Assembly: GCA_014189685.1 (NCBI GenBank) | Contig: DVAB01000049.1 | Location: 1 to 32,440, forward strand | Source: Candidatus Naiadarchaeum limnaeum | Lineage (GTDB): Archaea; Undinarchaeota; Undinarchaeia; Undinarchaeales; Naiadarchaeaceae | Direction of reading: 5' to 3' | DNA: 32,440 bases | Shown: one piece after another, positions 4,116 to 26,400 of the stretch | Position numbering within the stretch: position 1 is the stretch's first letter | Layout of the letters: each line of letters opens with the position of its first letter | Program-made: the position numbers and the translations under genes | The notes under the pieces: generated by a model | Databases searched by the model: none | What the model was told of the DNA's origin: nothing | Seen by the model: only the letters and a program-made list of their open reading frames with translations

Positions 4116-5075
4116 ATGGTAGAAGCGGAAGAATTTGTTCAAAAAGCGATTTCTGAAATAAAAAATACTATCAAGTCTGGTAAAGCTATTATTGCAGCCT
4201 CTGGAGGAGTTGATAGTACAGTTGCAGCTATTTTGTGCCACCGCGCAATTGGAAAAAATTTAACTGCAGTTCATGTTGATACTGGACTAATGCGGAAAAA
4301 TGAAAGCGCACAGGTTGTTGAAGTTTTGAAAAGTTTTGGATTAACTGTTAGATTTGTTGATGCAAAGCAAAAATTTTACACTGCTTTAAATGGAATTACT
4401 CATCCGGAGGAAAAGCGCAAGATAATTGGAGAACTTTTTATAAGAATTTTTGAGGAAGAGGCTGAAAAAGTAAAAGATGTTCAATATTTAATTCAGGGAA
4501 CAATTGCTCCTGATTGGATCGAATCAGGAGGCGGGCTCAGAGATACAATAAAAACCCACCACAATGTTGGCGGGCTTCCAAAGGAAATGCAATTAAAATT
4601 AGTTGAGCCTTTGAGGGATTTGTACAAAGATGAAGTTCGGGAAGTTGGAAAGAATTTAGAAATTCCAGATTCCATTGTAAACAAACAACCATTCCCGGGT
4701 CCAGGGCTTGCGGTTAGAATTCTGGGAGAAGTTACAGAGGAAAGAGCAAAACTTTTGCAGGAGGCTGATTTTATTTGGCGCGAAGAATTGGAAAAAGCCG
4801 CAAATGAGGAAAAAATAAATTTGCCCTGGCAATATTTTGCAGTTCTTCTCCCAATTAGAACAGTTGGAGTGCACGGGGATTTGCGCGCATATGGCTATAC
4901 AATTGGCCTGCGCGCAGTTGAAAGTTTTGATGGAATGACTGCGAATTTTTTAAAAATTCCCCCAGAACTTTTGGAAAAAATTGCAATTCGCATTCACAAT
5001 ACCTTGAAAAAAGATATTAACAGGGTGGTTTATGATATTACAAATAAGCCGCCTTCAACAATCGAGTGGGAATGA
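4116..5075 (+). CDS. guaAB: GMP synthase subunit B (ATP-pyrophosphatase)
   Basis: Converts XMP to GMP with ATP, using ammonia from the separate glutaminase subunit, which here lies at 10646-11230. The PP-loop is ASGGVDSTVA (residues 28-37). Also seen are GTIAPDWIESGGG, IKTHHNVGGLP, the dimerisation-domain signature KQPFPGPGLAVRILGEV, and the C-terminal DITNKPPSTIEWE that is nearly invariant in GMP synthases. Archaea usually make the two halves from separate genes that often lie side by side. Here about 5.5 kb separates them, and a second copy of this gene's last codons sits at 9500-9565. The start is 18 bases after purM. Confidence 0.95.
   Translation: MVEAEEFVQKAISEIKNTIKSGKAIIAASGGVDSTVAAILCHRAIGKNLTAVHVDTGLMRKNESAQVVEVLKSFGLTVRFVDAKQKFYTALNGITHPEEKRKIIGELFIRIFEEEAEKVKDVQYLIQGTIAPDWIESGGGLRDTIKTHHNVGGLPKEMQLKLVEPLRDLYKDEVREVGKNLEIPDSIVNKQPFPGPGLAVRILGEVTEERAKLLQEADFIWREELEKAANEEKINLPWQYFAVLLPIRTVGVHGDLRAYGYTIGLRAVESFDGMTANFLKIPPELLEKIAIRIHNTLKKDINRVVYDITNKPPSTIEWE
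5010..5075 (+). repeat. Left copy of the guaAB 3' end (island boundary repeat)
   Basis: The last 22 codons of guaAB. They match 9500-9565 in the same orientation: 47 of 66 bases agree, and 18 consecutive residues (INRVVYDITNKPPSTIEW) are identical. Together the two copies bracket the RiPP island, like the attL/attR remnants left by integration at the guaA 3' end. Confidence 0.75.
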
Positions 5076-5097
5076 ATTTTTAATATTTTTTAAAAGT

Positions 5098-5109
5098 AAA
5101 GTATATAAA
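5098..5109 (+). promoter_or_regulatory. TATA box of precursor gene 1
   Basis: AAAGTATATAAA is a strong archaeal TATA box with purines before it (BRE-like). It ends 30 bases before the precursor ATG at 5139, so the leader would be very short. The same element at the same spacing precedes precursor 2. Confidence 0.75.
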
Positions 5110-5138
5110 CTGTTCATACGACTCCTTCTCTGATAAAT

Positions 5139-5237
5139 ATGGAGTATGTAACACCAGAACTTCGACCACCAGTTCCAATGTGCATGGGCGACAGAGTTGG
5201 AAGGCTTTGCATGTTGGGTGGAATTTCACTCATCTAG
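5139..5237 (+). CDS. RiPP precursor peptide 1 (32 residues)
   Basis: A 32-codon gene, ATG to TAG. It encodes MEYVTPELR, then PPVPMCMGD (residues 10-18), RV, GRLCML (21-26) and the tail GGISLI. Its paralogue at 5364-5468 shares 21 of the first 26 residues, and nine of those 21 codons differ silently, which shows selection on the peptide. Each of the two cysteines (15 and 24) is followed by methionine. There is no lysine. The charged N-terminal part would serve as leader and the PMCMGD-GRLCML part as core (inference). It lies next to a radical SAM/SPASM maturase with a PqqD-like domain, a GNAT and an ABC exporter. The mature product and exact cleavage site are unknown. It does not resemble any RiPP precursor I know. 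Confidence 0.85.
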   Translation: MEYVTPELRPPVPMCMGDRVGRLCMLGGISLI

Positions 5238-5265
5238 AGAGTGGCATTAAAATTTAGTAGTTATA

Positions 5266-5310
5266 TTAAATACTTACTGTGTTCTCTCTTCTTTTGAACT
5301 CAAAGCAATG
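5266..5310 (-). pseudogene. Remnant of the 3' end of the radical SAM maturase gene
   Basis: On the minus strand this reads HCFEFKRRENTVSI plus TAA. The true maturase end is HCFEFKEIENVIAT plus TAA at 5496-5540. Length and stop position are the same, and 33 of 45 bases agree. No more of the gene follows: at 5311-5314 the sequence passes into the promoter of precursor 2. It is the right-hand end of the first tandem-duplication unit, not a working gene. Confidence 0.8.
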
Positions 5311-5322
5311 CAATTTAAGAGT

Positions 5323-5334
5323 AAAGTATATAAA
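5323..5334 (+). promoter_or_regulatory. TATA box of precursor gene 2
   Basis: AAAGTATATAAA again ends 30 bases before the ATG at 5364. After it, TTCATAC-A/G-ACTCC is also kept between the two copies (5113-5125 and 5338-5350) although nearby leader bases have drifted. That could mark an initiator or leader element. Confidence 0.75.
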
Positions 5335-5363
5335 TTATTCATACAACTCCCTATGTGGTAACT

Positions 5364-5468
5364 ATGGAATATGTAGCACCAGAAGTTCAGCCGCCAGTCC
5401 CCATGTGTATGGGCGATACCACTGGAAGACTCTGCATGCTAAGCACGCTAAGCATAGAGCTTTACTAA
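5364..5468 (+). CDS. RiPP precursor peptide 2 (34 residues)
   Basis: A paralogue of the gene at 5139. It encodes MEYVAPEVQ, then PPVPMCMGD (10-18), TT, GRLCML (21-26) and a different, longer tail, STLSIELY. Both cysteines and all four methionines are kept. Conserved codons carry silent changes relative to copy 1 (GAA/GAG, CCG/CCA, GTC/GTT, CCC/CCA, TGT/TGC, GAT/GAC, AGA/AGG, CTC/CTT, CTA/TTG). Replacements fall at residues 5, 8, 9, 19 and 20 and in the C-terminal tail. The cell may therefore make two related products with the same modification. It converges on the maturase gene, with 27 bases between the stops. The function of the product is unknown. Confidence 0.85.
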   Translation: MEYVAPEVQPPVPMCMGDTTGRLCMLSTLSIELY

Positions 5469-5495
5469 GAATAGTATTAATTTTTAGTACGTGGA

Positions 5496-6917
5496 TTAAG
5501 TAGCTATAACATTCTCTATTTCTTTGAATTCAAAGCAATGCGGTGGTGTTGCATATAGTGCTTTAAAGCGATCTTTTTCAGGATAGCGATCTTTGTTATA
5601 CAGATATACTATTGCTCTGCACGATCCTCCACAGGCATACTTGAAAGTGCAGATACCACAGCGCTCAAATTGGTCAACGCTCATAGAGCGGAAGAGTTTG
5701 AAAATTTCAGAATTTTCTATAATATCCCAGACTGTTCGCTCTCTTACATTTCCGCCTGTGAATTCGGGCCACCCTCCTAAAAGAATACATGGTTTTACAT
5801 TACCTTCTGGGTCAATTGCAATTCTATGTATTGCAGCACCGCACATTTTGCGAGGCGCAACTTTTTTGTCCCATCTCTCTAAATTAAACAAATCTTCAAG
5901 CGGCTCATCTATATCAACAGCTATCTTCTGTTGATATTCCTTTGAAAGTTCAAGAACTGCTGCTACAAAGCTGCGCGTTTGGTCAGGCGTGAGTTCGGAT
6001 ACTATTCCTGCGCCACGTCCCATAGGCTGAGCAAAGCCAAGTCTGATTATAGGCGCGCCTAAACTTATTGCTAACTCCACCCTCTTTCTCATCTCAGGCA
6101 TATCTGCTGAGGTCATAACAGATGACACCATGACTATATGGCCAAGCTCAGCAAGCATTCTAACTGCGTTAGTTGCTCTTTTCCAAGATGTTGGCACTCC
6201 CCTAAATTTATCATGCATTTCAGGTGTTGAGCCATCTATGGATATTTGAACTATGCTAAAGAGCTCCTTGATTTTCTTTGCATTGCTATTATCAATAAAG
6301 AAGCCATTTGAAAAAAGAACAGGTGCGAGCCCAATTTTTTTGGCATATTCTGCTAGCTCAAAAACATCGTCCCTCATTAATGCTTCGCCGCCTGTAAAAG
6401 TTACACCTATTATACCCGCCTCCTGTATATCATCCAGCATCTTCTTGCACTCTGCTGTTGTCAATTCCTTTTCTTTTGCAAAGCCCGCATTTGCAGAGCA
6501 GTGAACGCATTTTAAATTGCATTTTAGTGTAAATTCAATATCCGCCCACAGCGGTCGCCTTATGCCACTGACTTGAACTCCTTTGTACTTTTCGTAATAT
6601 GAAATCTCAGGCTCAACTTTGTCTTCACTTTTAACAATAAGTTTGTGCTCAAACATCTTTTCTAAAACATTCTTTGTATCGCGAAGGGCAATTGGGAAAT
6701 CAACATTTTCAAATTCCTCGCAGATAACCTTTGCAATATCATTCACAGTCTTATCGCCATCACAACACTCAAAAATTCGAGCAGCAGTTAGATTTATCTC
6801 TCTTGCTATTGTTGTTCTTCTGTTAAAAACAGTGCCGCCATTTGGCTCTTTTCTATAAATTATTTCAGGACTTCTTATGTAGTACATCTTAGCACCATTT
6901 GTTTCGTGAAGTTGCAC
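5496..6917 (-). CDS. Radical SAM/SPASM peptide maturase with N-terminal PqqD-like RRE domain
   Basis: 473 residues from a GTG at 6917; an ATG at 6887 (residue 11, MYYIRSPE) is an equally plausible start. Domains: a PqqD-like winged-helix RiPP recognition element (about 11-98: FNRRTTIAREINLTAARIFE, then DGDKTVNDIAKVICEEF); a radical SAM core with C133-x3-C137-x2-C140 (CNLKCVHC) and the GGE-type motif TFTGGEALMR; and a C-terminal SPASM domain with all seven cysteines (359, 377, 420, 423, 429, 433, 461, including CGICTFKYACGGSC). This predicts three iron-sulfur clusters. Such enzymes make thioether, C-C or related links in peptides such as sactipeptides, ranthipeptides and PQQ precursors. The likely substrates are the two peptides beside it. 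The chemistry cannot be told from sequence. It follows the GNAT gene by 4 bases. Confidence 0.9.
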   Translation of the reverse strand: MQLHETNGAKMYYIRSPEIIYRKEPNGGTVFNRRTTIAREINLTAARIFECCDGDKTVNDIAKVICEEFENVDFPIALRDTKNVLEKMFEHKLIVKSEDKVEPEISYYEKYKGVQVSGIRRPLWADIEFTLKCNLKCVHCSANAGFAKEKELTTAECKKMLDDIQEAGIIGVTFTGGEALMRDDVFELAEYAKKIGLAPVLFSNGFFIDNSNAKKIKELFSIVQISIDGSTPEMHDKFRGVPTSWKRATNAVRMLAELGHIVMVSSVMTSADMPEMRKRVELAISLGAPIIRLGFAQPMGRGAGIVSELTPDQTRSFVAAVLELSKEYQQKIAVDIDEPLEDLFNLERWDKKVAPRKMCGAAIHRIAIDPEGNVKPCILLGGWPEFTGGNVRERTVWDIIENSEIFKLFRSMSVDQFERCGICTFKYACGGSCRAIVYLYNKDRYPEKDRFKALYATPPHCFEFKEIENVIAT

Positions 6918-6921
6918 TTAT

Positions 6922-7830
6922 TTAAAGATTTCTTTCGTAAAGTCTTATATTGGGGTTTCTTGTCTCTTTTTTAAACCCAATATTTAGATACATCCCTAGG
7001 GAAGGGGATGCTGTGCCAGCACTTGCAAGCACAGATCTTGTTCGCCTAGATCTTGCCCATTCAATGCTTCTCTTAATTAAGTAGGGCGAAACTCCGCTTT
7101 TAGCCTCATAAACAATTGATGTTCCACTTATCAGAGCACTAAATGGAAAACCGCTTGAGCAAATTACATTCTTTACAAAAGCCACAATTTCTCTCTTGTC
7201 ATTTTCTAATAGGAAAAAGCCATTTTGCTCTGCCCCCCATACTAATTCTTTGTAGAGGTACTCCTGAATCTTCTTTTCAATATTTTCAAACATTAAAGAG
7301 ATAAGCCTTGGCTTATCACTACTTTCAAAGACTTTTTCTCGTAGCCCTGCTGGCGGTTGCAAACTGAGCGGGTGTGGAGGAATTCTATATCTGAGCGTAT
7401 GTCCTTCGTATATTGGCTTAAATCCATAACCATCTAAAAACCCCCAAATATCATCATTTCTCACGATCGGCGAGGTATGCACTTTTTGAATTCCTGCACT
7501 CTTCATTTTGTCGCAAACAAGATCAAATAATTGCACTCCTGCAGTCTCCAAGTAACCTGGATGAATGGCAAAGAAAATTTGTCCAGTGGGTGGGCTCATT
7601 CCCTTATACTCTCGGCTTTGATGTCCTCTGACCGCTCCAACAAATCTTCGCTTATCGTAAGCCACAAAGTGCCAGTCATTATTGTACAATGGGTCGTTTA
7701 AAATAAGCTCTTTGACTGATTTTGGTGTAGTTTCTTGAAAAAATCGGTGGTAGTTATTTGCACTATTATATAAATCAACATAACTTTGCAAATCTTTTTT
7801 TGCATTGAAATTTCTAATTATAACAACCAT
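6922..7830 (-). CDS. GNAT-superfamily protein, probable double-domain acyltransferase
   Basis: 302 residues. The N-terminal half (about 3-150) has GNAT features: the strand VIIRNFNAKKDLQSYVDLYN, then VAYDKRRFVGAVRGHQSR and the IHPGYLETAGVQLFDLVCDKMKSAGIQKVHTSPI segment resembling the acetyl-CoA region, then FLDGYGFKPIYEG. The C-terminal half (about 165-302) repeats the pattern: FLLENDKREIVAFVKNV, then SPYLIKRSIEWARSRRTRS and MYLNIGFKKETRNP. It is the first gene of the maturase operon, with the stop 4 bases before the maturase start. It could acylate the peptide N-terminus or protect the host by modifying the product. Since neither precursor has a lysine, the alpha-amine would be the only obvious amine. 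Substrate unknown. Confidence 0.7.
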   Translation of the reverse strand: MVVIIRNFNAKKDLQSYVDLYNSANNYHRFFQETTPKSVKELILNDPLYNNDWHFVAYDKRRFVGAVRGHQSREYKGMSPPTGQIFFAIHPGYLETAGVQLFDLVCDKMKSAGIQKVHTSPIVRNDDIWGFLDGYGFKPIYEGHTLRYRIPPHPLSLQPPAGLREKVFESSDKPRLISLMFENIEKKIQEYLYKELVWGAEQNGFFLLENDKREIVAFVKNVICSSGFPFSALISGTSIVYEAKSGVSPYLIKRSIEWARSRRTRSVLASAGTASPSLGMYLNIGFKKETRNPNIRLYERNL

Positions 7831-7915
7831 GTGTATAAAATTAAAGTCTACTTCATAATATTTATAGTTTCTATAACAACTTTAATTAATACCATTTTTC
7901 ATTAGGTGTAGTAAT
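7831..7915. promoter_or_regulatory. Divergent promoter region between GNAT-maturase and exporter operons
   Basis: 85 bases separate the two opposed start codons. On the minus strand ATAAATATT (about 7857-7866) lies about 30 bases before the GNAT ATG. On the plus strand TTAATTAATA (about 7882-7891) lies about 25-34 bases before the exporter ATG. The two TATA-like elements lie back to back, so one regulator could control modification and export together. I see no clear palindromic operator. Confidence 0.5.
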
Positions 7916-8668
7916 ATGATAAAAACAACAAACTTAACAAAGAGATACCCTCTGCCTGGAAAAATGGGCTTTGTAACAGCTCTAAACAGAGTGAGCTTAG
8001 AAATTAAAGAAGGAGAAATCTATGGATTAGTTGGCCCAAATGGAGCTGGGAAAACGACCCTTCTAAAAACTATTGCCGGCTTGCTGATCCCGGAGAAAGG
8101 AACAGTTTCTGTTAATGGAAAAGATATTATTGAAGACCGCGAACAAGTGCGTGGCTCAATTGAATTTTTGATGAGTTCTGGTTGGATAATATTTGATTAT
8201 AAACTACCTTTGAATTTCAACCTAAAATATTGGGGAGTGATGCAAGGACTGGGGTTGAATGAAGCTGAGAAAAAGGCAGAGGAAGTGCTTAAACTAATTG
8301 GCCTTGGTGAATATGCAGATGCCTCACCTGAAAACTTATCCGCAGGAATGCGGCAAAAACTAAACATTGCCCGTATTTTACTCACTGAAAAACCAATTTA
8401 CCTTTTGGATGAGCCAACAACTGGTCTTGATGCGGTATCAGCAAATTTTACAAGGAATTTCATTAAGAAGAATTTAAAAAAGCACGACAGAACTATTATC
8501 ATGGCCACGCATAATCTCTGGGAGGCTGAGGAGCTCTGTGACCGGATTGGAATTCTGAATAAAGGAAAGCTGCTCTTCAGTGGCACAATTGCTGAGTTGA
8601 AGAAAAAGCACGGCAAAAAATCGCTGGAGCAGATATTTATGAAACTCGTTGGAGGCACAGAGATATGA
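7916..8668 (+). CDS. ABC transporter ATP-binding protein (exporter type)
   Basis: 250 residues, a complete ABC ATPase. Walker A is GPNGAGKTT (40-48), the signature is LSAGMRQKL (141-149, where LSGGQ is usual), Walker B is IYLLDEPTTGLD (161-172), and the H-loop is in MATHNLWEAEELCDRIG. The order and the C-terminal GTIAELKKKHGKKSLEQIF match the DrrA/CcmA-like ATPases that pair with ABC-2 permeases. It overlaps the permease gene by four bases (ATGA), so the two are translationally coupled. Its place beside the precursor and maturase genes suggests export of, or immunity to, the modified peptide. This is inferred from position only. Confidence 0.93.
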   Translation: MIKTTNLTKRYPLPGKMGFVTALNRVSLEIKEGEIYGLVGPNGAGKTTLLKTIAGLLIPEKGTVSVNGKDIIEDREQVRGSIEFLMSSGWIIFDYKLPLNFNLKYWGVMQGLGLNEAEKKAEEVLKLIGLGEYADASPENLSAGMRQKLNIARILLTEKPIYLLDEPTTGLDAVSANFTRNFIKKNLKKHDRTIIMATHNLWEAEELCDRIGILNKGKLLFSGTIAELKKKHGKKSLEQIFMKLVGGTEI

Positions 8669-9486
8669 GATTGCTTGATATCCTTTACATAAACACTTTA
8701 AGGTCTCTTAAGCTGTGGCTCAGGTTTAGAGTTAGCTTTGCCACATCCATTGTTGCAATGATCGCAAACATAGCAATCTTTTTCTTTTTGGGAATGGCTT
8801 TTGGGAATGCCGCAAATTCTGCAGTTGCTATTTATGGAACAACATTCTTCTCATTTGTACTTGTTGGAATTGCTTTTAATCAATATGCGCTTATGGCAGT
8901 AAATGACTACTTAAGGATTATACGAACCGCTTATTTCTCAAACTGGATGGAAATACTTCTTTCTTCAAGAACAATGGGATATTACTTGCTTTCAACCATT
9001 GTATGGAGCTTTATTTTGACAACTTTTAATCTCATACTCTATCTTGTTTTTGGGGTTTTTTTGTTTGGCGCAAACTTAATTTTCCCACCAAATTGGTGGA
9101 TGATTTTTGTTATACTCTTTCTTACAATTATTAGCTTATCTGGGATTGGGCTTCTTGGAGCTGCTGTTTTTTTAAGAGGAGCCAAAGGAGATCTTGAGCC
9201 AATAACATGGCTTACCGGAATATTTGCCGCTCTTGTTGCAGGTGTTTACTATCCAATTGAAAAACTGCCCGCGATTGTACAAACAATTTCAAAATTTTTG
9301 CCACACACTTACGCTCTCAGGGGGGTAAGATTGATTTTGCTGCAAGGCGCAGGGGGCGGGGAGATTTTTTCTATAATAGTTTATTTAGCACTTTTCTCAA
9401 TTGTTTTGTTTCCACTTGGTTACTTTCTTTTCATAAAAAGCTTAAAAAAAGCTGAGCGTGAAGGTACGCTAGTCCGCTGGGCTTAG
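8665..9486 (+). CDS. ABC-2 type transporter permease
   Basis: 273 residues with about six hydrophobic segments (near 22-47, 55-75, 108-132, 146-172, 184-200 and 238-262), the layout of ABC-2 permeases. The stretch LTGIFAALVAGVYYPIEKLPAIVQTISKFLPHTYALRGVR, split here by description only, is typical of the family (the YYPIEKLP and LPHTYALRGVR parts). It is coupled to the ATPase gene by a four-base overlap. Its stop lies only 13 bases before the guaAB remnant, so it is the last gene of the island. Confidence 0.9.
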   Translation: MRLLDILYINTLRSLKLWLRFRVSFATSIVAMIANIAIFFFLGMAFGNAANSAVAIYGTTFFSFVLVGIAFNQYALMAVNDYLRIIRTAYFSNWMEILLSSRTMGYYLLSTIVWSFILTTFNLILYLVFGVFLFGANLIFPPNWWMIFVILFLTIISLSGIGLLGAAVFLRGAKGDLEPITWLTGIFAALVAGVYYPIEKLPAIVQTISKFLPHTYALRGVRLILLQGAGGGEIFSIIVYLALFSIVLFPLGYFLFIKSLKKAEREGTLVRWA

Positions 9487-9499
9487 TATTCTGTGGGAA

Positions 9500-9565
9500 A
9501 GGAATATTAACCGCGTTGTATACGATATCACTAACAAACCGCCAAGCACAATTGAGTGGGGATAA
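9500..9565 (+). pseudogene. Displaced 3' end of a guaAB gene (right island boundary)
   Basis: Reads RNINRVVYDITNKPPSTIEWG plus TAA in frame, split here as RNINRVVY then DITNKPPSTIEWG. It matches the end of guaAB at 5010-5075: 18 consecutive residues are identical but many codons differ silently (47 of 66 bases the same). Similarity fades upstream of 9500, and no GMP synthase catalytic part remains. The TAA is one base before the next gene's ATG, as in an operon, so this looks like the original guaAB end, cut off by an insertion. Confidence 0.8.
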
Positions 9566-9566
9566 A

Positions 9567-10649
9567 ATGCCAGACGATTTCAGAGCAACTACTTTGGGAG
9601 GACTTTTTGTCCCAATTACAATGCTATATTCTAATTTAATAGCCGTGCTCATGGCACGATTTTTGAGTCTGAGAAGAAAAAAAGCTCATGCATATTTGGG
9701 AAGAAAGGAAATTTTCGATGCACTTGATAGACTTAAAACTGAGAGAGAATATATTGGATTTATAAGAAACTTTAGAAAAGATGTTTTCGATCCGTTTAAA
9801 GAATTATTATTTACAGCGCGCGAAGGCGTTTATACACAGATTCCGCGCAAACAATTGGCAACATTTTATCAGGAGTTCAATCTTGGCGGTCTTTACTATC
9901 CACGCTTTCAATTCGTATCTGGACGAGAGGAGGTTATTGGAAGCGAAGAGTACAAACCAGAAGCACTTGTAGAAGTAGAAAGAATAAAGGATGTTGAACT
10001 GGGCAAAATAATTAAAGAGCACAGTGTCCTTATTGACAAAATATTACGGCGTGCGCTATTTTCAAAAGAAAGAGACCTCATTGTTGCAGATCTTGTTTTT
10101 GCGTCAGGCACATATATTGTTGCGCGCATGTCAACTGAAGACATATATTTTACCATGAACAGGCTTCTTGGCGCTTATAGAACAAAGCCTTGGGCATCGC
10201 AATTTGCTCCATTTACTTATGCACTTACTATCAAACCAAATGATGTTGAAGTCGATATTGACACTTCAACAACAAAAATCTTTAAAGCTAAATATCGGTC
10301 AATAAGAAAGGAAGTAAAACGATACTTTAGGGTGAAAGGAGCAATAAAAAAAGTGCAAAGGATTTTGAGCAGCCGCGAATTAGGGAAAAAATTCTATCTC
10401 CAGCTTTCATATGCCCCCTCAAAAGAAAGAAATAAGAAAGGGGAAATGATAGTTCTAATAGCTTTTACTCCTCCAATTTCCAGGTTTGCGCGCGGAAATG
10501 ATTGGGATATCTTAAGGAATTTAAGCTTATCAGAACTTATGGGAACTTTTGATGGGATAGCTGATGTAATTTTTGAGCTGAAGGAAGAAATCCTCGGTGC
10601 ATTCGACCCAATTGATTTGAGCCGGCACTTGGAGGAATATTTTAAATGA
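9567..10649 (+). CDS. Conserved-looking protein of unknown function in the GMP synthase operon
   Basis: 360 residues from an ATG one base after the guaAB remnant's stop. A TTG start at 9516 would lie inside that remnant in another frame and is unlikely. One hydrophobic stretch, GGLFVPITMLYSNLIAVLMA, near residues 11-30 may anchor it; the rest is charged and mixed alpha/beta, with basic stretches such as KAKYRSIRKEVKRYFRVKGA. It ends SRHLEEYFK and overlaps guaAA by four bases, so it is translationally coupled to it. The original order guaAB - this gene - guaAA suggests a link to GMP synthesis or simple co-transcription. I recognise no domain. Confidence 0.8.
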   Translation: MPDDFRATTLGGLFVPITMLYSNLIAVLMARFLSLRRKKAHAYLGRKEIFDALDRLKTEREYIGFIRNFRKDVFDPFKELLFTAREGVYTQIPRKQLATFYQEFNLGGLYYPRFQFVSGREEVIGSEEYKPEALVEVERIKDVELGKIIKEHSVLIDKILRRALFSKERDLIVADLVFASGTYIVARMSTEDIYFTMNRLLGAYRTKPWASQFAPFTYALTIKPNDVEVDIDTSTTKIFKAKYRSIRKEVKRYFRVKGAIKKVQRILSSRELGKKFYLQLSYAPSKERNKKGEMIVLIAFTPPISRFARGNDWDILRNLSLSELMGTFDGIADVIFELKEEILGAFDPIDLSRHLEEYFK

Positions 10650-11230
10650 AAATAATTGTAATTGACAACGGCAGCCAATATACACACAGAATTTACAGAA
10701 CTCTTCAGGACTTAAAAGTTGAAACAAAAATTGTTCCAAACACAACTCCTTTGGAGCAAATCAAAGATGCGGATGCTCTTTGTTTTTCCGGAAGCGGAGG
10801 GCTAGTAAGCCAGGGAGCTTCTATGGGAAATTGTCCAATTTATTTGGAAAAATTCAAAGGCCCAATTTTAGGAATGTGCGCAGGCCATCAATTAATAGGG
10901 GAATTTTTTGGTGGAAAAGTTCGCTCAGCATCTGAATCAGATAGCGGGACTCCAGAATATGGAAAAACAGAAATAATAATTGACAAGCATGAGGGTTTGT
11001 TTAAAGGATTGCCTGTAAAATTTGCTGTTTGGGAATCACACAATGATGAAGTTTCAGAAATTTCTCCTGAATTAGAACTTTTGGCGCATTCAGATACTTG
11101 CGCTTTTGAAGCAATTAAACATATTTCTAGGCCGATTTACGGAGTTCAGTTCCATCCAGAAGTCCAGCACTCTCAATTTGGCCGCGAAATCTATGCAAAT
11201 TTTGTGCATATAGCAAAAACTTATAAATAA
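10646..11230 (+). CDS. guaAA: GMP synthase subunit A (glutamine amidotransferase)
   Basis: 194 residues, a class I glutamine amidotransferase that feeds ammonia to the guaAB subunit. The nucleophile Cys78 is in ILGMCAGHQLIG, and the His/Glu pair is H170 and E172 in GVQFHPEVQHS. The N-terminus, IIVIDNGSQYTHRIYRTL, is typical of archaeal GuaA glutaminases, and the length fits the stand-alone subunit. It is translationally coupled to the unknown gene upstream and lies far from its partner subunit at 4116-5075. Confidence 0.96.
   Translation: MKIIVIDNGSQYTHRIYRTLQDLKVETKIVPNTTPLEQIKDADALCFSGSGGLVSQGASMGNCPIYLEKFKGPILGMCAGHQLIGEFFGGKVRSASESDSGTPEYGKTEIIIDKHEGLFKGLPVKFAVWESHNDEVSEISPELELLAHSDTCAFEAIKHISRPIYGVQFHPEVQHSQFGREIYANFVHIAKTYK
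11219..11229 (+). promoter_or_regulatory. TATA box for the 11250 gene
   Basis: ACTTATAAATA lies inside the last codons of guaAA, 21-31 bases before the ATG at 11250. This suggests the small membrane gene has its own leaderless promoter. Confidence 0.5.
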
Positions 11231-14124: not shown

Positions 14125-17100
14125 CTATTTTTCTTTTCTTAAAAAGGAGTATGAAATCAAAATTAACGCTGCAACAACTAAAACAATAATTCCATAAATT
14201 AGGATCGGGGTTTCTTTTTTAACTTCCTCCTTTTTTTCAATTTCCTGAATTATTTCAGGTGCTTTCTTCTCCCCAGTTTCCGCAGGAATTATTGCCTGCT
14301 CTGGTGTTTTATTTTTCTCAGTGGCTTGACTCTTATTTAGCAACTGAGCACCACCCCCTCCCCCTCCTCCTCCTGTACCACTAGTTCCTGTACTTGGAGC
14401 AGGTATTGATGGAGGAACATACTCAGCAGCTGCAGAATAGTGCAATCCTGTAATCAGATAGCGATTTCCATTTACCAATGTGCACCTATGCTCATTTTGC
14501 AAAGTTCCATCGCATGTGAGCAACTTTTCGTTTGTGCCAGTGCATGTGCTTGTAATGTCTATTAGATTTTCCACTTCAGCATCTTTTATGCAAACTTTGT
14601 TGTCCGCAGTTGTCTTGTCAAGATACATCGACTTTGTCCTTCCTTCAGGAGTTAGATTAACGCCCCTTATTAAAATTCCTTTAGCCCCTCTTATCTGCTC
14701 CTCTTTAATTGTTATGTTGCTGAAATCCAAAATCTTTGAGCTATTAAATGTGAAATTAAATTGTATTAGCACTCTATTGTCTCCGGTAGAAATAAAATCA
14801 ACTGGCAATGTTCCATTTATTATTTTAAAAATATCGCCCGAGTTGTTTATTTTTATTGTAATGTTTATGTTTGAAATAATATTGCTGGCATTTCCCTGAA
14901 TGTAATCAAATATGTCTGGAATTCCATCGTTGTCATCATCCAAATCGCAGGCATCTCCTTGGCTGTCTTTGTCAAAGTTTTCTTGTTTAGGATTGTAGAT
15001 TAGCGGGCAGTTGTCCTGCGAGTCTGGAATTCCGTCATTATCAGAATCTTTAATAATTGGTTTGCCGCCGGAGAAAATTATATATCTTATTATATTCTTG
15101 AAATAACTCGCCACACCATCGCCATCTAAATCTTCACTTATAATAATTCCTGCATTACGGTCATAGTATATTTCCCCTGTGGTAAAAACTAGCGTATTGT
15201 TGTAGAAAGTTAGGCCGCTTCCAACAACATTTGTGTTAATCAACTTTTTGGTTAGGATATCGTAATATCTTATTATAGGATTGATACCATCAACTATAGC
15301 GATTGCTTTATTAGAAACTGCCGTAGCAAAATATCCTGCGAGACCGCCTATATCTGCAACTTCTCCTGTTGCGATATTATAATATTTTAATTTATTCTCA
15401 GGATAAGGCGTTGTAAAAACAACAATATTATTATAAAAAGCAAAGCCGGATGCACCAATGGAAATATTTGTATCAACTAATGCATTTCTATCTATGTAGT
15501 ATAATTTCAATTTATTTTCTGGAGCCGAACGGAATGCAATTATCCCATCTGCTATGTCAACCGACTCATATGCTGTAGCATAACTCGTATTCACAAACTG
15601 CTTATTGCCAGTATTGTAATAGGCAAGATAATAGTTCGGGTAACTCCCCATAATAAGGGCAATAATTCCGCTTGAAACACTTACCTCGCGGATACCATCT
15701 CTGACTGACAAAACACTTCTTGTTAATTCTTTTGTAAGAATATCATAGTAATTCAAATAAAATATGCCCTCTGTGTAGTTCCAAACTGAAAAAGCAATAA
15801 TATTGCCATCTCCAGAAGCAGTGTATGTAGAAATGTTAGTATTTTCAATGATTCCTGTATTTTTATTGTATAATCGCAAAATGTAATCATAAATGTCGCC
15901 ATCCCCATTTAGGTCTTTTCCTGCCTCATATGTTATAACTGGAATTATTGTTGCTTCAGGCTCTGCATTGCTATTGTTAATAGCTTGCCCAACCACTCCT
16001 GTATTAACTAAAGTTTCCTCAATACCATCCCCATCTATATCTGGGATTTTTGAGAATTGTGGGAAAGTAATGTTACTTTTTACAGTTATTGTTGTGTTTT
16101 GTCCATATCCTGTGTTTGCGCCATCGCTGCAGACAGCCTGTGCTGTGTATGTTCCAGTTTTATTTGGGGTAAATAAAGTCCACCATGTTTGGGCGCCGGA
16201 TTTAATCATTAACTTTTGAGTTGAGCCATCCCAGCGGAAGTTGCAATAACTTACATTTACATTATCAGTTGCAGTTATTGTAAAATTAGTTGCGTTATTT
16301 AGAATTGCAGTTGTTGGGGATATACTGCTTACGATTGGGGGAGTTGTGTCTTCGAGAGTGAGATAAACATATTCTATGAAAATATTTGAAATCTTTAAAA
16401 TACCAGCAGAATCTGAGTGAAAAATCAATGGAACTAAACAGTTACCACTTGAATCAGAACTACAGGTTCTTAGGAAATCATTGATTTCTGCTGAAAAATT
16501 AGAGGTGCTTTCTGTGATTTTAAACTCTCCTAGATAAGACCATTGTACATCTCCATCATTGGCAACATCAAGAGAGGGCTTGTTTGTGAAAGAAGGAACT
16601 GTAGCAGCATAACTTATAAACCGATAACCATAAACTGTTGTGGGATTACCAAATTCATCTATATAATGATAGGCATAGTTATCATCAGAGACAAGAGAAC
16701 CATTTTCTGCGCATCTAAAAGTAACAGTTTGTCCTTCGGCTATACCAGAAGTATAACGCAAAACCATCTTCCATATGAACTTACTTTGGTTTTGAACATA
16801 AAAAGCCCACATATCATATTGCCCATATTTTTGTTCTATTAACCGTGGATCTTTATATTCAGCTTCGCTTATTGCACCTACAAAAGAAACAGGGGCACCA
16901 ACTGGAGTATATTTCCAACCTCCGCAATCCCAGTTAATAGAAGATGCTGTATATATGGGATATTTCGTTGTAAATCTATAGATGTCTTTTAATGGGCTAT
17001 CCACATAGCCTGGATACTCGTATAGTTCTTGTGTAGCTAATCCTTTTATTGAAAGGGTGGCATTTGTGACGGAAGTATTTTTCAGCATCTTTAAGAAAAC

Positions 17101-18582
17101 AACTTGATTTTCTGCTCTTGTAAATGTTAAATTCTTCTCGGTAGAACCATCCGAAAGTGTATTGATGTAGTAGGTAAATGTTTTGGGAGCACTGCTAACC
17201 GTAAAACTCTTTATCCCACTATTTGCAGTATTTCCAGCAGCATCAGAAGCATTTGCCCAATAAGTGTGGTTTCCTGTAGAGTAAGTTTGTGCTGTTGTTG
17301 TGCAAGGAGAACTCGTGCAAGTATTTTTTAATACAGCGTCAACGTATATTCTGATACTACTTATGCCGACATTGTCAGAAGCTGTTGCTGTAATTATTAC
17401 TGAATCAGATGTTGTTGGGCTTGAAGGAGAATGAGAAATTGAAACATTTGGAGGAATCGTGTCTGCTGGTTGTGAGACTATAAAACTCTTTGTCCCAGTT
17501 GCCGGATCTCTTCCATAATTCAATGAAGTGTCATTTGCTACAGCATAGTAAGTATATGTTCCTGCGAGTGAGGCGACAATTGAGTATGTACATGGAGAGG
17601 TTGTGCAGGAATAAGCCCATCCGCCCCCACTTGGGTTAACAATCCACATTGAAATCATTTGTATGCCAACATTATCTGTTGCTATTGCAGTAAAGGTAAC
17701 AGTTTGTCCTGTTGTTAGATTTTGTGGACTATGAGTTATTGAAACATTTGGCGGAGTTGTATCTTTAGGAATTGGAATCTCATAAGTAACCTTTATATCT
17801 GAAACTTCCAAAATTCCGCCTGCAGAACTTGAATGAAAAAGCAGTGGAATTGTGCAATTGCCATTTGAATCTGGGGTGCATGTTGATAAATATTCATTCA
17901 GTTCTGCTGTAAACTCAGGAGTGGTTTCTGTAGTTTTAAACTCTCCAGAATAATACCACTGTAAATCAGCATCATTTCCAACATCTAAATTTGGGTCAGT
18001 TGGGGCAAAAGGCAAATAATATTCGTAATATATTTCATGCGGCTTGTTTTTATTAGGAGGCTCGCCGCAAACAACATTTTGTGCAAACTTACTTGTATTT
18101 AAAACATAAAATGTACCGCTGGCATTTATATTAGAAGGATCATTATATTGCTGCTCAGTTATTTGTGTGAAAGTTGTAAAGTTTGTAGGAACATTACCGC
18201 CCGGGCCGCAGTGAGTGACCGCATAGGAAATTGCGTATATATTGTTATATGAATTATATCTGCTAAAATTGCCTATGCTGTCTATGTAAGTAAGATTTTC
18301 AGCATGCACAATTCCATCACCTCTATATATTGAAAAACCGCTCAAAGTAAGAGAAGCATTTGTAACAGTGGCATTTTTTGCTATTTTTAAAAATTCTGTT
18401 TTTTCACCGGCATTTTCAAATATTAAATTTTTTTGAGTTGAGCCATCTGAAAGTGTATTTAGAGTATAGGTTTGAAGGCCAGTGGGAAAATTATTCCGCG
18501 TGGACAAAAGAAGAATGGCAATAATAACTATGAATAAAAAAGGTAGGTATTTTCTGAATTTATCAAAGCCTGTTTTCTTCAT
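14125..18582 (-). CDS. Large anchored surface protein (Ig-like, propeller-like and TSP3 calcium repeats)
   Basis: 1485 residues, exported and anchored at both ends: TM at 10-28, and a C-terminal TM near 1461-1481 followed by RKEK. In order: a paired module (about 38-270) containing [12 protein letters not shown], a D-x-G-N-D-A-D segment and [13 protein letters not shown]; two Ig-like repeats (about 280-465, [11 protein letters not shown] and [11 protein letters not shown]); a second copy of the module (about 469-745, [25 protein letters not shown]); an Ig-like domain (746-834); a propeller-like region (about 846-1167); thrombospondin type 3 calcium repeats (about 1174-1224, [15 protein letters not shown]); a C-terminal cysteine-containing domain; a run of eight glycines (about 1400); and a charged Glu/Lys stalk. 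Many N-x-S/T sites. Role: cell envelope or adhesion, inferred. Confidence 0.85.
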
Positions 18583-20498: not shown

Positions 20499-23400
20499 GT
20501 GGGAGTGGTGGTACGAAAATTTTTATTTCCTAGACAGAAATCTCTAAAATTTGCTGTAATACTATTATTTTTTATACTATTTTCTGTTTCATTATCATAC
20601 AGCACCTTTGCTTTTCATATAGGCGAACTGCACGCAAGCGTTTCCCCAACATCTGTTGCAACAACTCCTTCAAACACAATCACGCTTACTGTAACTGTTG
20701 GCAACACACTTAGGCTCACATCGCTGGACATTTACATTAACAATGTTTTCAAAGGGTCAGTTCCTGCTTGTGGGCTTTTTTGCCCGGCCAATAAACAATT
20801 TTCATATTCTTTTCTAGCCTCCTCAACTCCTAAGAACTATAATGTGGGGATTGATGTAAAAGCAGTTGCAAACGGATGGGACAAAGGAACATGGACAAAA
20901 TCTTTTCTCATTCCTGTTTCAGTTTCAGAAACTCCAGCACAGCCTGTAATCAAAGCTGATATAACCTCGTTTGTGGTCAATTCTGGAACCTTCAACCCAG
21001 GCGACACTGTTAACGCAACTGTTACTATCAAGAACACAGGCACGAATGCATACAGATTTTATGTTGGCTATTCCTTACAGGACCCAAACAGAAACTATAT
21101 TGATATTCCCTATCAGGAGGCTTATCTTTCAGTTGGAAGTTCAAAAACACTTACTTTTAAGTGGACTGTTCCAAGCACCCCTGTCTCTGGAACTTATAAT
21201 GCAGTGACTGCTGTCTGGAAAACTCAATCAGGCGGAAAACTTTCCGATGAAGTTGCAAGGCAGTGGAAATACAATGCATTTAGCGTTTCAACAGATGTGG
21301 TAAAGGGAGAAATAACATCTTTTACAGTAAGTCCTGGAACTTTCAGGCCAGAGGATACTGTGCGCGCAAACATAACTGTAAAAAATACAGGAACTAAGGA
21401 TAACACATTTTATGTTAAATTTTCTGTGCGCGACTCAGGCGGAGTTATTTCTGATACACCTTATCAACAAACATTTCTTACAGCCGGCGCTTCAAAGAGT
21501 TTAAACTTTTCCTGGAAAGTTCCAAGCACTGCGCGCACAGGGGCTTATGATGCTACTGCAGCACTTTTCAAAACTCTCTCAGGCGGCCAGCCTTCTGGGG
21601 AGCTGGACAGGGAATGGAAATATAGTGCTTTTAGTGTGACAACAGCTCTTGCAAAAACTAATTATATCCGCGGATTTTTTATAAGACCTTTTGCACGGCC
21701 TGCAGACCATTACGGGAATCCGCATGATATCAATACTGTAATTTCAGACATTAAAAGAATTGAAGGTACGTTTGGAATAGATATAGATGCGGCTTATGTT
21801 AATTTTAGAAGCGGTAATTTTGGTGGCGACGCGTTTCAGGATTATCTCTACTACCAACAAACTCAATATCCATCAGTAGTTGTTCCTTATGCAAAAGGAA
21901 ACGATTTTCTAAAAACTTGGATTAAATCATTTCATGATAACAATATCAAAGTTCATGCCTGGATTACTTTGTTCAATGACAATATGCTTCTAGAGCATCC
22001 AGAGTTGATTGGAAAAACACGCGCCCAAATAGAAGTTCCTGGATGTGAAGGATTTGTAAATCCTGCAATTCCTGAGGTTAGAAATTTTGAGCTAAGTATC
22101 ATAAAAGAGATTGCAGCAAATCCAAATTATAATATTGATGGAATAAATCTAGACTATGTGAGATATCCTGAAAGGAATAGCACTTGTAATCCAACAGTTG
22201 ATAAAAATGTTATAACTAATTTTGTTGCAGAAGTTAAAAACGAGCTGGCAAAGATTGAGCAGCAAAAAGGCAGGGATATAGTTCTTTCTGCGGATCTGTT
22301 CACATTTCCGGCTGATGCAAGTGTTGGTCAAGATGTGGGTGCGCTTGCTCAGCATATAGAATTTTTGCATCCAATGATTTATAATGGAGCAGAGGGAAAA
22401 ACGGAATCTAATTTACTTATTTCTGGGGCAAATGTGTTCTACTCAGCCACATGTGCTGGAAAGGGATGTAAGTATGCTCCTGCCACAAGAACTCATAATT
22501 TAAAAGTGAATAGGGACAATGCAATAGATAAAATAAAAAGCGATATTTCAACATCAAGTGCTTTGATTTCTAATGGCTATGTTTTGTTTGAATATTCATA
22601 TCTCAGCACATACACAACTCCTTACATAAAAGGAAATGCCGCATGGGTTTATTCTGCGGAGGATCAGTATAATCAAGTCTATATTTCTCAAATCAAAGCT
22701 CATAACTCTAAGGCACTTGATAACGATAAAATAAGGTACCTCTTTTGTAAAGCCGGCCGCATAGATGTTGATTCTCTGAGTATTGTTTACGATTCAAGTA
22801 AACTTAATTGGTGCAAATCTAATTTTCCAGAGCTAGAGGTTTATCCAATGATTGACCGCGGCGATTATAATACCGTAGGGAAAAAGTTCAGCGATTTGAG
22901 TTCTTCTGAGCTCAAGACTCTGGCAGATAAAATAGCTGATTTAATAATAAATGAAAAAGGCGTTCATTTGAATATTGAGCCTGATAATTCAAATACAGTT
23001 TCGCTTATTTACAAATTAAGGGAAAGTTTGGGCGATAATGAGTTTAAATATATAATAAGTGCAACTGCTCAGGATGGAGTGCTTTTCCCCTTAGATTTGG
23101 ATAAGCGCGCTGATTTTGTTGTATTGATGAATTATGATAAGGCTAAAGATCTTAGCTCCTACAAGAGCGCAGCTGACCATCACTCATCAACTTTTCTTTC
23201 GCGTCTGAATTTAGGAAAAGGAAGGGGCATTATCGGATTACCAGCAATTGCTACAGGCACTGAATATGAGTGGCAGCAAACACACCCGGGTCATGTTATC
23301 ACCGAAAATACCAGCTATAAGATGTTCGATTATTTCAGAGCAGGCTTTGATAGTATTGATAAAAATAATCCTAAATTCATTGGCGTGAGTTTGTGGGCAT

Positions 23401-26400
23401 TTCATCCGAGCTATTGCCTTAGGCATGATGATCCTGCTGCAACATCCGAGAATTGTCCAATCGTAATAACTGAAGAAGAATTCATGTATTTGCGCGGCGA
23501 GCTGCAGATGTTTAATGCTCCAACAAGCGGTGAAATTATACGCGATGGAATTCTAACAAATTCATATTCAATAAAAAATGTAATACAGATATTTTCTGGA
23601 TTGACAAATCTAATATTCCAAGTTAGATGGGGTGGAAGTGATATTGATGTTGTAGTTGAAACCCCAAACGGAACAAATATCAGCAGGGCAACTATTGGCG
23701 ATGTTGAATTTACTTCAACTGCGACTTCCGAATATTATAAAATTGCTAATCCAGACGCAGGAAACTGGACAGTTTATATTAATCCAATTGATATTCCAGC
23801 TTCTGGCGAAAACTATACATTTACAACTCTTACTGAGAGCCCAACTGATCTTTTTATTTCTCCCTCAGACATTTCCTTCTCAAACAGCGCCCCTCTTGAA
23901 AACACAGTAGTTCAAATAACAGCTAATGTTCATAACTTAGGGGGCCAAACCCCAACCGGAGGAGTAAATGTTAGTTTCTATGATGGCGCGCCGGGGAATT
24001 CAAAATTAATTGGTTCAACTCTGCTTGCAGTTCCTGTGGGTGGAAGTGCAACTGCTCAAATAAACTGGATTGCGACCTTAGGCACTCAAAATATCTACGT
24101 TAGTGTTGACCCTTCAAATCTAATAAGCGAAAGCAACGAAAGTAATAACATCGCGTTCAAACAGCTCACGGTGAAAAGCGGGGCAGATGTTGCTGTGTTT
24201 AGAGAGGATGTTACATTTTCCCCCGAAACTCCGCTTGCGGACGAGTTAATTGTTGTGAATATTACACTACACAATCTTGGGGATACAGATAGCGGCTTGT
24301 TCAGGACAGGACTAATAATAGAAGGCGTCAAAACAATTACTGAGCAAGTTTTGAACATTCCAAGCCACTCAACTTATTTTGTTAACCACAGTTTTACTCT
24401 CCCTGTAGGAAAATACAGGCTTAAAGTTTTTACTGATATCTTTAATGTTCTTTCTGAGCCAAATGAAACAAACAATATTGTTGAGTTTGACTTGGAAGTT
24501 TTTGAGCTAAGGCCGCCTGTTATTGCAATACGTTCCCCCTTGCAAAAGGGATACTCTTACAAAGAAAACTTAACTCTTGATTTCTCTGCAACAGCCGAGG
24601 CAGGGCTTAAATCAATTAGCGCGCAATTAGATACAACTCCAGCTAATAATGGAGATGCGTTTGATTTGTTTAATTTCACTCTAGGAAAGCACAATTTAAC
24701 AGTTACAGCAACTGACAATCTTGGAAGAACAGTTAAAAAAGCAGCAGTGTTCAGTGTTATTGATAGAATCCCTCCGGAAACCTCTGCAAATATAATTGAG
24801 GGCAGGCTTGGAAACAATGAATGGTTTGGAAGCGATGTGAAAGTTGAACTAACAGCTAAAGATGAAAAATCAGGACTAAAAGAAACTGGCTACAATTTTG
24901 ATAACTCTGGAAACTTTTTGCAGTATACTGAGCCTGTTCAGATTGCAAATGAAGGGACAACAACGCTTTATTATCGTTCAATTGATAATGCAGGAATTTT
25001 GGAAGGTGCGAATCCGTTTTCAATCACAACTTTTTCAGATGGTTCAGCTAAAAAAACACTTTTATTTAAGGCCGAAGAAATAGTTAATCTTTCAATTCCA
25101 AAGGATGCAAAAATTATCTCTGCAACTCTTGATGTTCAAGGAAAGTCAACAGCATTACCTACTACACCTTCTTCCGCAGGCTGGGAAATGGCAGATGATG
25201 GGCCCGGAGAGGGAATAATTTGGAATATTGCTCCATATCGTCTGGACAATATTGATTTTAGATTCACTTATGCTCAAGTTCCAACAAGTGGCTGGGAAGC
25301 AGCGCCTGACCTAAGTACAATCGAATTTGTTCGAGTTCCAAGTAATCTTGCTCCATGCTCAGGTGATTATTCTACACAACTTGATTACAAATATTTCAGA
25401 AGAAAATTATTTGTTCCAGACTCAGCAAGCAGTGTAAAAATAAAGTATTCTTGGATCGATGATAGCACACAGGCAAGAATAAATGGAGTTGCTGCTGCAC
25501 TCGGAGGTGGCGCAGGTGGTGATCGCTTTTTCATTGATAATGCCGCAAACAATAATTTAATTAACTATTTCACAAAAGGCGCTGAAAACGAAATCGTGCT
25601 TGTGGCCCAGGACAGTTGCGGCACAGACTTCAGGGCGCAGGGAGTTGAGATTTTTGTTGACAATGTTAAAATCAACCTTTTTTCCGCCTTTTCAGATTTT
25701 GATATCAAAGCAGCAATTACGCAGCAAGCTGGGAATGCGCAAAATTATCAAATCTTTGGAAAAGCAACCGCACTTGGCGAGACTGTTTCTGCGAATTTAG
25801 AAGAGAGTCTTAACGAAACTGTTCAACCCCTTAATACATGCATGTGGGCCGGCTATCCAACCCCTGAGTGGAATTCCTACTCAATTGCAAGAGAATCAAT
25901 AATTCCTGGGCAGAAATACAGGATTACTGTGCGAGGCGGGGCATCTGGAGCCTATCCTGGGATAAGCGCTTTTGTTGAATTGACTGACCCAAGTTGGAAA
26001 ATAACAACGTTTGAAAAGCAAAGCATAGCCCCTACCATGGCACTTACATATGATTCCAAGAAAGTAACAATAACCTATACAGGAGGTCCGAGCTGCTCTT
26101 ATTGTGCATGTAGGGATGGTGGCACACTTGACGTCAGTTTCATTGTTGAGAAATTTGAAATATTCCCATTGAATCCAAATATGGATGCGGGCGCTGATGG
26201 GGATTATGAATGGCAGCACAGCGGTGCACTTACAACAAAAGTAACAACTCCTGATTTCTCAGCAGAGCTCAATGAGCATTTAAGAGCCTGTGCAGATGCC
26301 TCTGGAGTTTGCACAATTCCTTTGAAGTTTTTTGCACAAAGTGGAAATTTGGAAATTTCAAATCTAAATATTCAGGTTGCTCCTTTTGAAGGCAATATTG

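Follow-up and report, generated by a model that had tools for sequence, protein, structure and literature searches.

The 32,440-nucleotide stretch of DNA analysed here (the window), which is contig 35 (DVAB01000049.1) of the 0.98 Mb, 98% complete genome of the archaeon Candidatus Naiadarchaeum limnaeum, contains a 4.4 kb islet at 5.08-9.50 kb that very probably encodes a system for a ribosomally synthesized and post-translationally modified peptide (RiPP), in which a radical S-adenosylmethionine (SAM) enzyme would act through a RiPP recognition element (RRE). Its two short peptides probably represent a new RiPP family. The RiPP reading is based on the anatomy of the genes, on an RRE-type motif in the leader of both peptides, and on the short peptide genes that were found beside RRE-fused relatives of the enzyme. 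It also appears likely, at a lower level of confidence, that the islet was acquired and that it combines a thioether-forming maturase, acetylation by a GNAT acyltransferase and export by an ABC-2 transporter. An earlier note on this DNA had proposed a RiPP system with a double GNAT; the RiPP system stood on these three lines of evidence, while the second GNAT domain did not fare as well.

The islet is positioned between the two genes of a split GMP synthase (PP-ATPase subunit, 4116-5075; glutaminase, 10646-11230), an arrangement that fits archaea. The gene order between them is two short genes (+), a PqqD-radical SAM-SPASM gene (-), a GNAT gene (-), genes for an ABC ATPase and an ABC-2 permease (+), and a gene of unknown function. 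The features of the islet are:

5102-5109, + strand: TATA box of precursor 1 (tatataaa), starting 37 nt 5' of the ATG
5139-5237, + strand: putative precursor peptide 1, 32 residues, MEYVTPELRPPVPMCMGDRVGRLCMLGGISLI, with leader motif YVTPEL and core PPVPMCMGDRVGRLCML
5327-5334, + strand: TATA box of precursor 2, identical to precursor 1 in tract and distance
5364-5468, + strand: putative precursor peptide 2, 34 residues, MEYVAPEVQPPVPMCMGDTTGRLCMLSTLSIELY, with leader motif YVAPEV and core PPVPMCMGDTTGRLCML
5496-6917, - strand: maturase with PqqD-type RRE, radical SAM and seven-cysteine SPASM regions, 473 residues from a GTG (Pfam, NCBIfam and cysteine pattern)
6922-7830, - strand: GNAT acyltransferase with one clear domain at residues 34-131 (Pfam), TATA at -36
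7916-8668, + strand: ABC transporter ATPase, DrrA-like (Pfam, NCBIfam)
8665-9486, + strand: ABC-2 type permease, overlapping the ATPase gene by 4 bases (Pfam, NCBIfam)

Both short open reading frames (ORFs), which the earlier note had described as paralogous genes of 32 and 34 codons, are real, translated genes with codons under purifying selection, as judged from their pattern of substitution. Over the first 26 codons the paralogues differ at 18 bases, distributed 4/3/11 by codon position, and 21 of the 26 residues are identical, a value that did not arise once when 18 changes were placed at random 20,000 times. Cysteine and neighbouring methionine are among the core residues retained in both paralogues. 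Lysine and tryptophan are absent from the peptides, and tyrosine occurs only at leader position Y3 and in the variable tail of precursor 2. The tract agtaaagtatataaa, with the TATA box starting 37 bases upstream, is common to both precursor ATGs, and no Shine-Dalgarno sequence was found at precursor 1. A TATA box at a spacing of approximately 37 bases is expected for near-leaderless archaeal mRNAs, and a transcript of this type would be expected for the precursors.

Residues 3-8 of the two peptides (YVTPEL and YVAPEV), part of the leader stretch MEYVTPELRPPVP that carries Y3 and P6, fit [Y/W]xxPx[L/V/I/F/A], the motif recognised by lasso-type RREs (PMC13381572). A structure-based survey grouped PqqD and the sactipeptide RRE StsC with the RREs whose recognised motif is W/Y/LxxP/L/I (PMC12710340). 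GDxxGR in the core resembles a turn, and AlphaFold2 modelling on the two-sequence precursor alignment placed strands at residues 13-18 and 21-26 (pLDDT ~65) with C15 facing C24; a hairpin with Cys15 opposite Cys24 is thus weakly predicted.

The earlier note had recognised no family for the precursor motif, and the searches agreed with it: neither Pfam nor NCBIfam contained a match, and the motif was found in no known protein family and nowhere else among the sequences searched. PMCMG was found only in the window across 394 archaeal genomes, and the host phylum was represented by six genomes in the genome set searched. PVPMCMG occurred at 39 places in 257 Gb of genomes, none of which had the second cysteine motif or a precursor-like ORF, and at four places in viral contigs, none of them precursor-like. 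A tblastn search with precursor 1 found nothing in phages and plasmids, and no additional precursor copy was found in the host genome. Two other candidates were discarded as chance: the next best match of a profile of both precursors in the 394 genomes (E=0.009), which lay antisense to an ftsZ-like gene, and IPMCMGDNMN at locus L090, which lacked GRLCML.

The recognition domain and all of the cysteines that had been claimed for the maturase were confirmed. Pfam placed PqqD at residues 35-94 (PF05402, E=5.9e-10), radical SAM at 127-268 and SPASM at 359-424; C133, C137 and C140 form a CX3CX2C motif, and C359, C377, C420-X2-C423-X5-C429-X3-C433 and C461 complete the seven-cysteine SPASM pattern. 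This arrangement is consistent with one SAM cluster and with ligands for two auxiliary clusters. An alternative ATG start is located 10 codons inside the GTG. The nearest solved enzymes by sequence were the sactisynthase SkfB (E=1.4e-16), followed by CteB and PqqE, and the nearest NCBIfam models were NirJ2, AhbD, MftC, TIGR04053 and StsB. All relatives from the search were labelled "same order" or "same domain"; identity was 36% at best over the SAM-SPASM part, and 26-30% in full-length comparison with RRE-fused relatives. No close relative was found by peptide patterns in a one-genome-per-species set, and the 58 viral homologues were all distant. A PADLOC match of the maturase to viperin was rejected as reflecting the generic radical SAM core only.

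A handful of the maturase matches among the 394 archaeal genomes extend into the N-terminal RRE region, and the neighbourhoods of a small sample were read by eye, the choice of the precursor ORF being our own. A short peptide gene lies approximately 15-60 bases upstream of the RRE-fused relative in genomes G068, G324, G235, G162 and G112; in G295 and G241 such a gene is part of the same cluster as the relative. The three genomes G068, G324 and G235 come from one genus, and their common peptide, encoded approximately 18 bp upstream of the maturase gene, ends in WKLTIEDFEKAACYRDHGDYRPIAPQ; a 32-residue version of it occurs in G162. The G112 ORF (L110:7765-7863) encodes 32 residues, MKTLQFEKPKIVPLKSKKTQWTIWGLWGKLPL, with the leader-like FEKPKI (FxxPxI) near its N-terminus, and lies 54 bp upstream of a PqqD-radical SAM-SPASM gene; the G295 and G241 peptides have 64-65 residues and two conserved W-C motifs, DTWC...DAWC. 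The choice of peptides was backed by conservation of the EDFEKAACYRDHGDYRP peptide across families f5 and f77 and of the DTWC/DAWC peptide across two genomes. The Pfam PqqD cut-off was reached in L110 and L148 and narrowly missed in L107 and L108. None of these peptides matched Pfam or NCBIfam (L149 was scanned in NCBIfam only), and no comparable peptide gene was found around the RRE-less relatives at L106, L109, L151 and L152. The earlier note had held that maturase orthologues with no such peptides nearby would speak against its proposal; no close orthologue was found, and the RRE-fused ones, which are distant, are accompanied by short peptide genes.

Since RRE-fused archaeal enzymes also adjoin short unannotated peptides, archaea probably hold several RiPP families that are missed by current gene callers. 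A conserved short ORF containing WKLTIEDFEKAACYRDHGDYRP (L107:7123-7242, L146, L147 and L108:948-1046) immediately precedes two radical SAM-SPASM genes; it occurs in two archaeal families and is a candidate for a separate archaeal RiPP family. The DTWC...DAWC peptide (L148:8049-8246 and L149:8716-8910, both on the - strand), which is clustered with a 703-718-residue protein and a PqqD-radical SAM-SPASM enzyme, is a candidate RiPP of a larger-genome archaeal family. The L110 cluster also contains a 260-residue protein of unknown function and a multi-helix membrane protein.

The stop codon of the GNAT gene lies 4 bases before the GTG of the maturase gene, which confirmed the coupling of the two genes that had been proposed. 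As for a double GNAT, Pfam matched Acetyltransf_1 in the first half of the protein only (residues 34-131, 25.2 bits against a cut-off of 20.7); the second half gave a weak match to a GNAT structure in the PDB (E=0.012) and a low-confidence secondary-structure pattern, and a fold prediction made without an alignment (pLDDT 35) was used for no claim. Searches for GNAT relatives returned one weak archaeal match and none in plasmids or viral contigs. The ATPase-permease pair named in the earlier note was also confirmed, and DrrA-like ATPases with ABC-2 permeases occur in other exported RiPP clusters.

Taken together, these observations suggest a pathway in which leader docking, peptide modification and export are proposed from what is known of the respective protein families. 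A separate TATA promoter would drive each precursor gene, giving a near-leaderless mRNA, and the N-terminal YxxPE[L/V] of the peptide would dock on the maturase at its PqqD-type RRE. This enzyme would cut SAM at the CX3CX2C cluster and, with two SPASM auxiliary clusters assisting, oxidatively crosslink the core around Cys15 and Cys24. The crosslinks would most likely be thioethers from cysteine sulfur to carbon in the GDxxGR hairpin, with methionine or another neighbour as acceptor; we infer this bond from the context, and a thioether of sactipeptide or ranthipeptide type has roughly even chances. Methionine is known as the acceptor of a cysteine thioether in SKF (PMC6231123), and the Cys-Met hairpin is thus a concrete prediction and not a result. 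The GNAT may acetylate the peptide, for tailoring or for self-protection, and the ABC-2 pair may export the peptide, protect the producer, or both. Because the precursors lack lysine, acetylation would have to target an N-terminus or the product. MccE of microcin C provides a known case of self-protection by acetylation, which by analogy is a possibility here; for the role of the GNAT and the biological purpose of the system we can only infer.

Several observations weigh against this reading. The maturase scored below every NCBIfam equivalog cut-off, the best being NirJ2 at 187 bits against 500. In a quick tree of 33 different sequences that included several long rows, it stood alone on a long branch, outside the starred clade (98) of RRE-less archaeal relatives, which belong to the same superfamily and probably do not act on peptides. 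The sequence does not reveal the acceptor residues, the system is present in a single genome, which precludes a covariation or co-occurrence test, and no leader peptidase is present in the cassette. An HtpX-like M48 protease gene (617-1528) is located 3.6 kb upstream of precursor 1, and nothing ties it to the islet.

That the small ORFs are unrelated or non-coding chance neighbours of a radical SAM protein acting on a tetrapyrrole or another small molecule would explain why the heme models NirJ2 and AhbD gave the top NCBIfam scores. Their cut-offs are nevertheless far off (AhbD, 164/500 bits), and the codon-position bias and conserved peptide, the RRE domain, the tandem duplication tied to the maturase end (described below) and the peptides beside RRE-fused relatives make this explanation most improbable. 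The PqqD-type RRE and the kinship to PqqE and MftC might instead point to a pathway like that of PQQ or mycofactocin, in which the peptide is consumed into a redox cofactor and not exported. Such a pathway is very unlikely, as the Glu-Tyr pair of PqqA and the C-terminal Val-Tyr of MftA are absent from the precursors, the cassette has no cofactor-processing or dehydrogenase genes, an exporter is present, and the maturase falls short of the MftC cut-off (157/265 bits).

The clustering of cysteine and methionine on facing predicted strands would also suit a metallophore, in which the MCM/LCM hairpin, whether or not modified by radical chemistry, would bind Cu(I) or another soft metal and be moved by the ABC pair; since the cassette lacks genes for a metal importer, a receptor and a regulator, and no homologous metallophore family was found, we consider this quite unlikely. 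A RiPP system with other radical chemistry, such as a C-C or C-O crosslink, epimerisation or an oxidative change of methionine or cysteine with no cysteine thioether, is an unlikely though appreciable alternative. The MftC, PqqE, StsB and WgkB models rank alongside in NCBIfam, and radical SAM-SPASM enzymes catalyse many bond types (PMC11002830), whereas the retention of cysteine with its neighbouring methionine in both paralogues, and the lack of tryptophan, lysine and conserved core tyrosine, argue against such chemistry.

Comparison of the proposed RiPP system with known ones revealed partial likenesses. Sactipeptide systems (SKF/SkfB, subtilosin/AlbA, thuricin Z and streptosactin) share with the islet an RRE, a radical SAM enzyme with auxiliary clusters, a short cysteine-containing peptide and an ABC exporter, and thuricin Z likewise has two precursor genes with a radical SAM enzyme and ABC transporters (PMC8172795). 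In contrast, the islet has an unrelated precursor, a GNAT, an archaeal host and a linkage that is only predicted, and its maturase is below the cut-offs of the sactisynthase models AlbA (116/850 bits), SkfB (83/300) and StsB (146/625). Ranthipeptide systems (SCIFF/CteB and PapB) share the seven-cysteine SPASM and the RRE, CteB being the second-best solved match, whereas SCIFF has six cysteines in 45 residues and the islet precursors have two; the SCIFF maturase (59/425 bits) and PapB (85/340) cut-offs were not reached, and no SCIFF-like or PapA-like family matched the precursors in NCBIfam or Pfam. Since these family models do not fit and the bond is only predicted, membership in the sactipeptides or ranthipeptides is not claimed.

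The PQQ (PqqA/D/E) and mycofactocin (MftA/B/C) systems resemble the islet in having a PqqD-type RRE, a SPASM enzyme and a very short peptide, and differ from it in that the RRE is fused to the islet maturase, the reacting residues and companion genes are absent, and neither the MftC nor the PqqE (125/381 bits) cut-off is reached. The archaeal cassettes at L107/L108/L146/L147, L110 and L148/L149 also pair an RRE-fused SPASM enzyme with a short peptide gene (L107, L108 and L110 being at the 26-30% identity given above), and differ from the islet in their accessory genes and in wholly different peptides (EDFEKAACYRDHGDYRP; TQWTIWGLWG; DTWC..DAWC).

A RiPP class is defined by its chemistry, which sequence does not decide, and the new class that the earlier note had suggested is therefore not claimed. 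Only tentatively do we entertain a new class restricted to a poorly sampled archaeal phylum, in which a short hairpin of two facing, methionine-flanked cysteines would be crosslinked by a divergent RRE-SPASM enzyme, acetylated by a dedicated GNAT and exported, the genes moving between archaea as a minimal islet by way of the guaA attachment site of bacterial islands.

Two features beyond those in the earlier note were identified, a tandem duplication of approximately 225 bp that includes the maturase 3' end, and a duplicated guaA 3' end that bounds the cassette. Each unit of the direct repeat carries a promoter, a precursor gene and the final 14 maturase codons:

5089-5313: first unit, with promoter, precursor 1 and a degenerate copy of the maturase 3' end
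5314-5541: second unit, with promoter, precursor 2 and the real maturase 3' end
5271-5311, - strand: remnant of the maturase 3' end between the precursors, HCFEFKRRENTVSI and stop, against HCFEFKEIENVIAT and stop in the maturase

Because the copy of the maturase end is still legible between the precursors, it is concluded from the repeat structure that the precursor pair arose by local tandem duplication at the maturase 3' end, and that the peptide was then conserved while the maturase fragment drifted.

The duplicated guaA end is located at both edges of the cassette:

5013-5075, + strand: 3' end of guaA (GMP synthase PP-ATPase subunit, gene 4116-5075), left boundary, with GAGTGGGA at 5064
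9503-9565, + strand: second, diverged copy of the last 21 codons of guaA, stop included, right boundary, with GAGTGGGG at 9554

The two copies, the only places in the host genome where the fragment was found (E=3.1e-6), differ at 17 of 63 DNA positions, distributed 3/3/11 by codon position. Because these differences are mostly synonymous, both copies were apparently guaA ends under selection before they were joined; simple duplication followed by decay would not be expected to yield such a pattern. In bacteria, GIsul2 integrates into the guaA 3' end at GAGTGGGA (PMC9376610), a site that is present at 8/8 positions in the left copy and 7/8 in the right. The match alone proves little, since its core is part of conserved I-E-W-E codons and is expected in many guaA genes; insertion is suggested by the second guaA-end copy, which bounds the cassette on its opposite side, and from these boundaries the cassette looks like an acquired islet inserted at the guaA end.

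The likeness to GIsul2 and kin thus lies in insertion at GAGTGGGA in the guaA 3' end with the gene end on both sides (PMC9376610), whereas the islet is only 4.4 kb long, has no integrase in the cassette or host genome and lies at an archaeal split GMP synthase gene. No tyrosine integrase (PF00589) was detected in the 98% complete host genome, while all control genomes were positive; complete guaA was absent from the five same-order genomes compared for synteny of the insertion, and guaA is not named among the targets in a review of archaeal tyrosine recombinases. No anomaly in G+C content was found over the cassette, so that base composition neither supports nor denies transfer.

To our knowledge, few modified-peptide systems have been described from small-genome archaea. 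A 32-residue substrate with one enzyme is close to the simplest RiPP pathway and hence easy to test in vitro, and the guaA-end scar suggests that cassettes can move by a route described so far, in the literature surveyed, for bacteria.

Among the other genes of the window, 9567-10649, between the guaA-end copy and the glutaminase gene, encodes a protein of approximately 360 residues for which Pfam gave no match at E up to 0.01. Surface-type proteins of very large size are encoded at 14125-18582 (1485 residues) and 20499-28595 (2698 residues); short motifs, among them TFSDGSAKKTL, and repeated Ig-like TPPxVxI segments are common to both.

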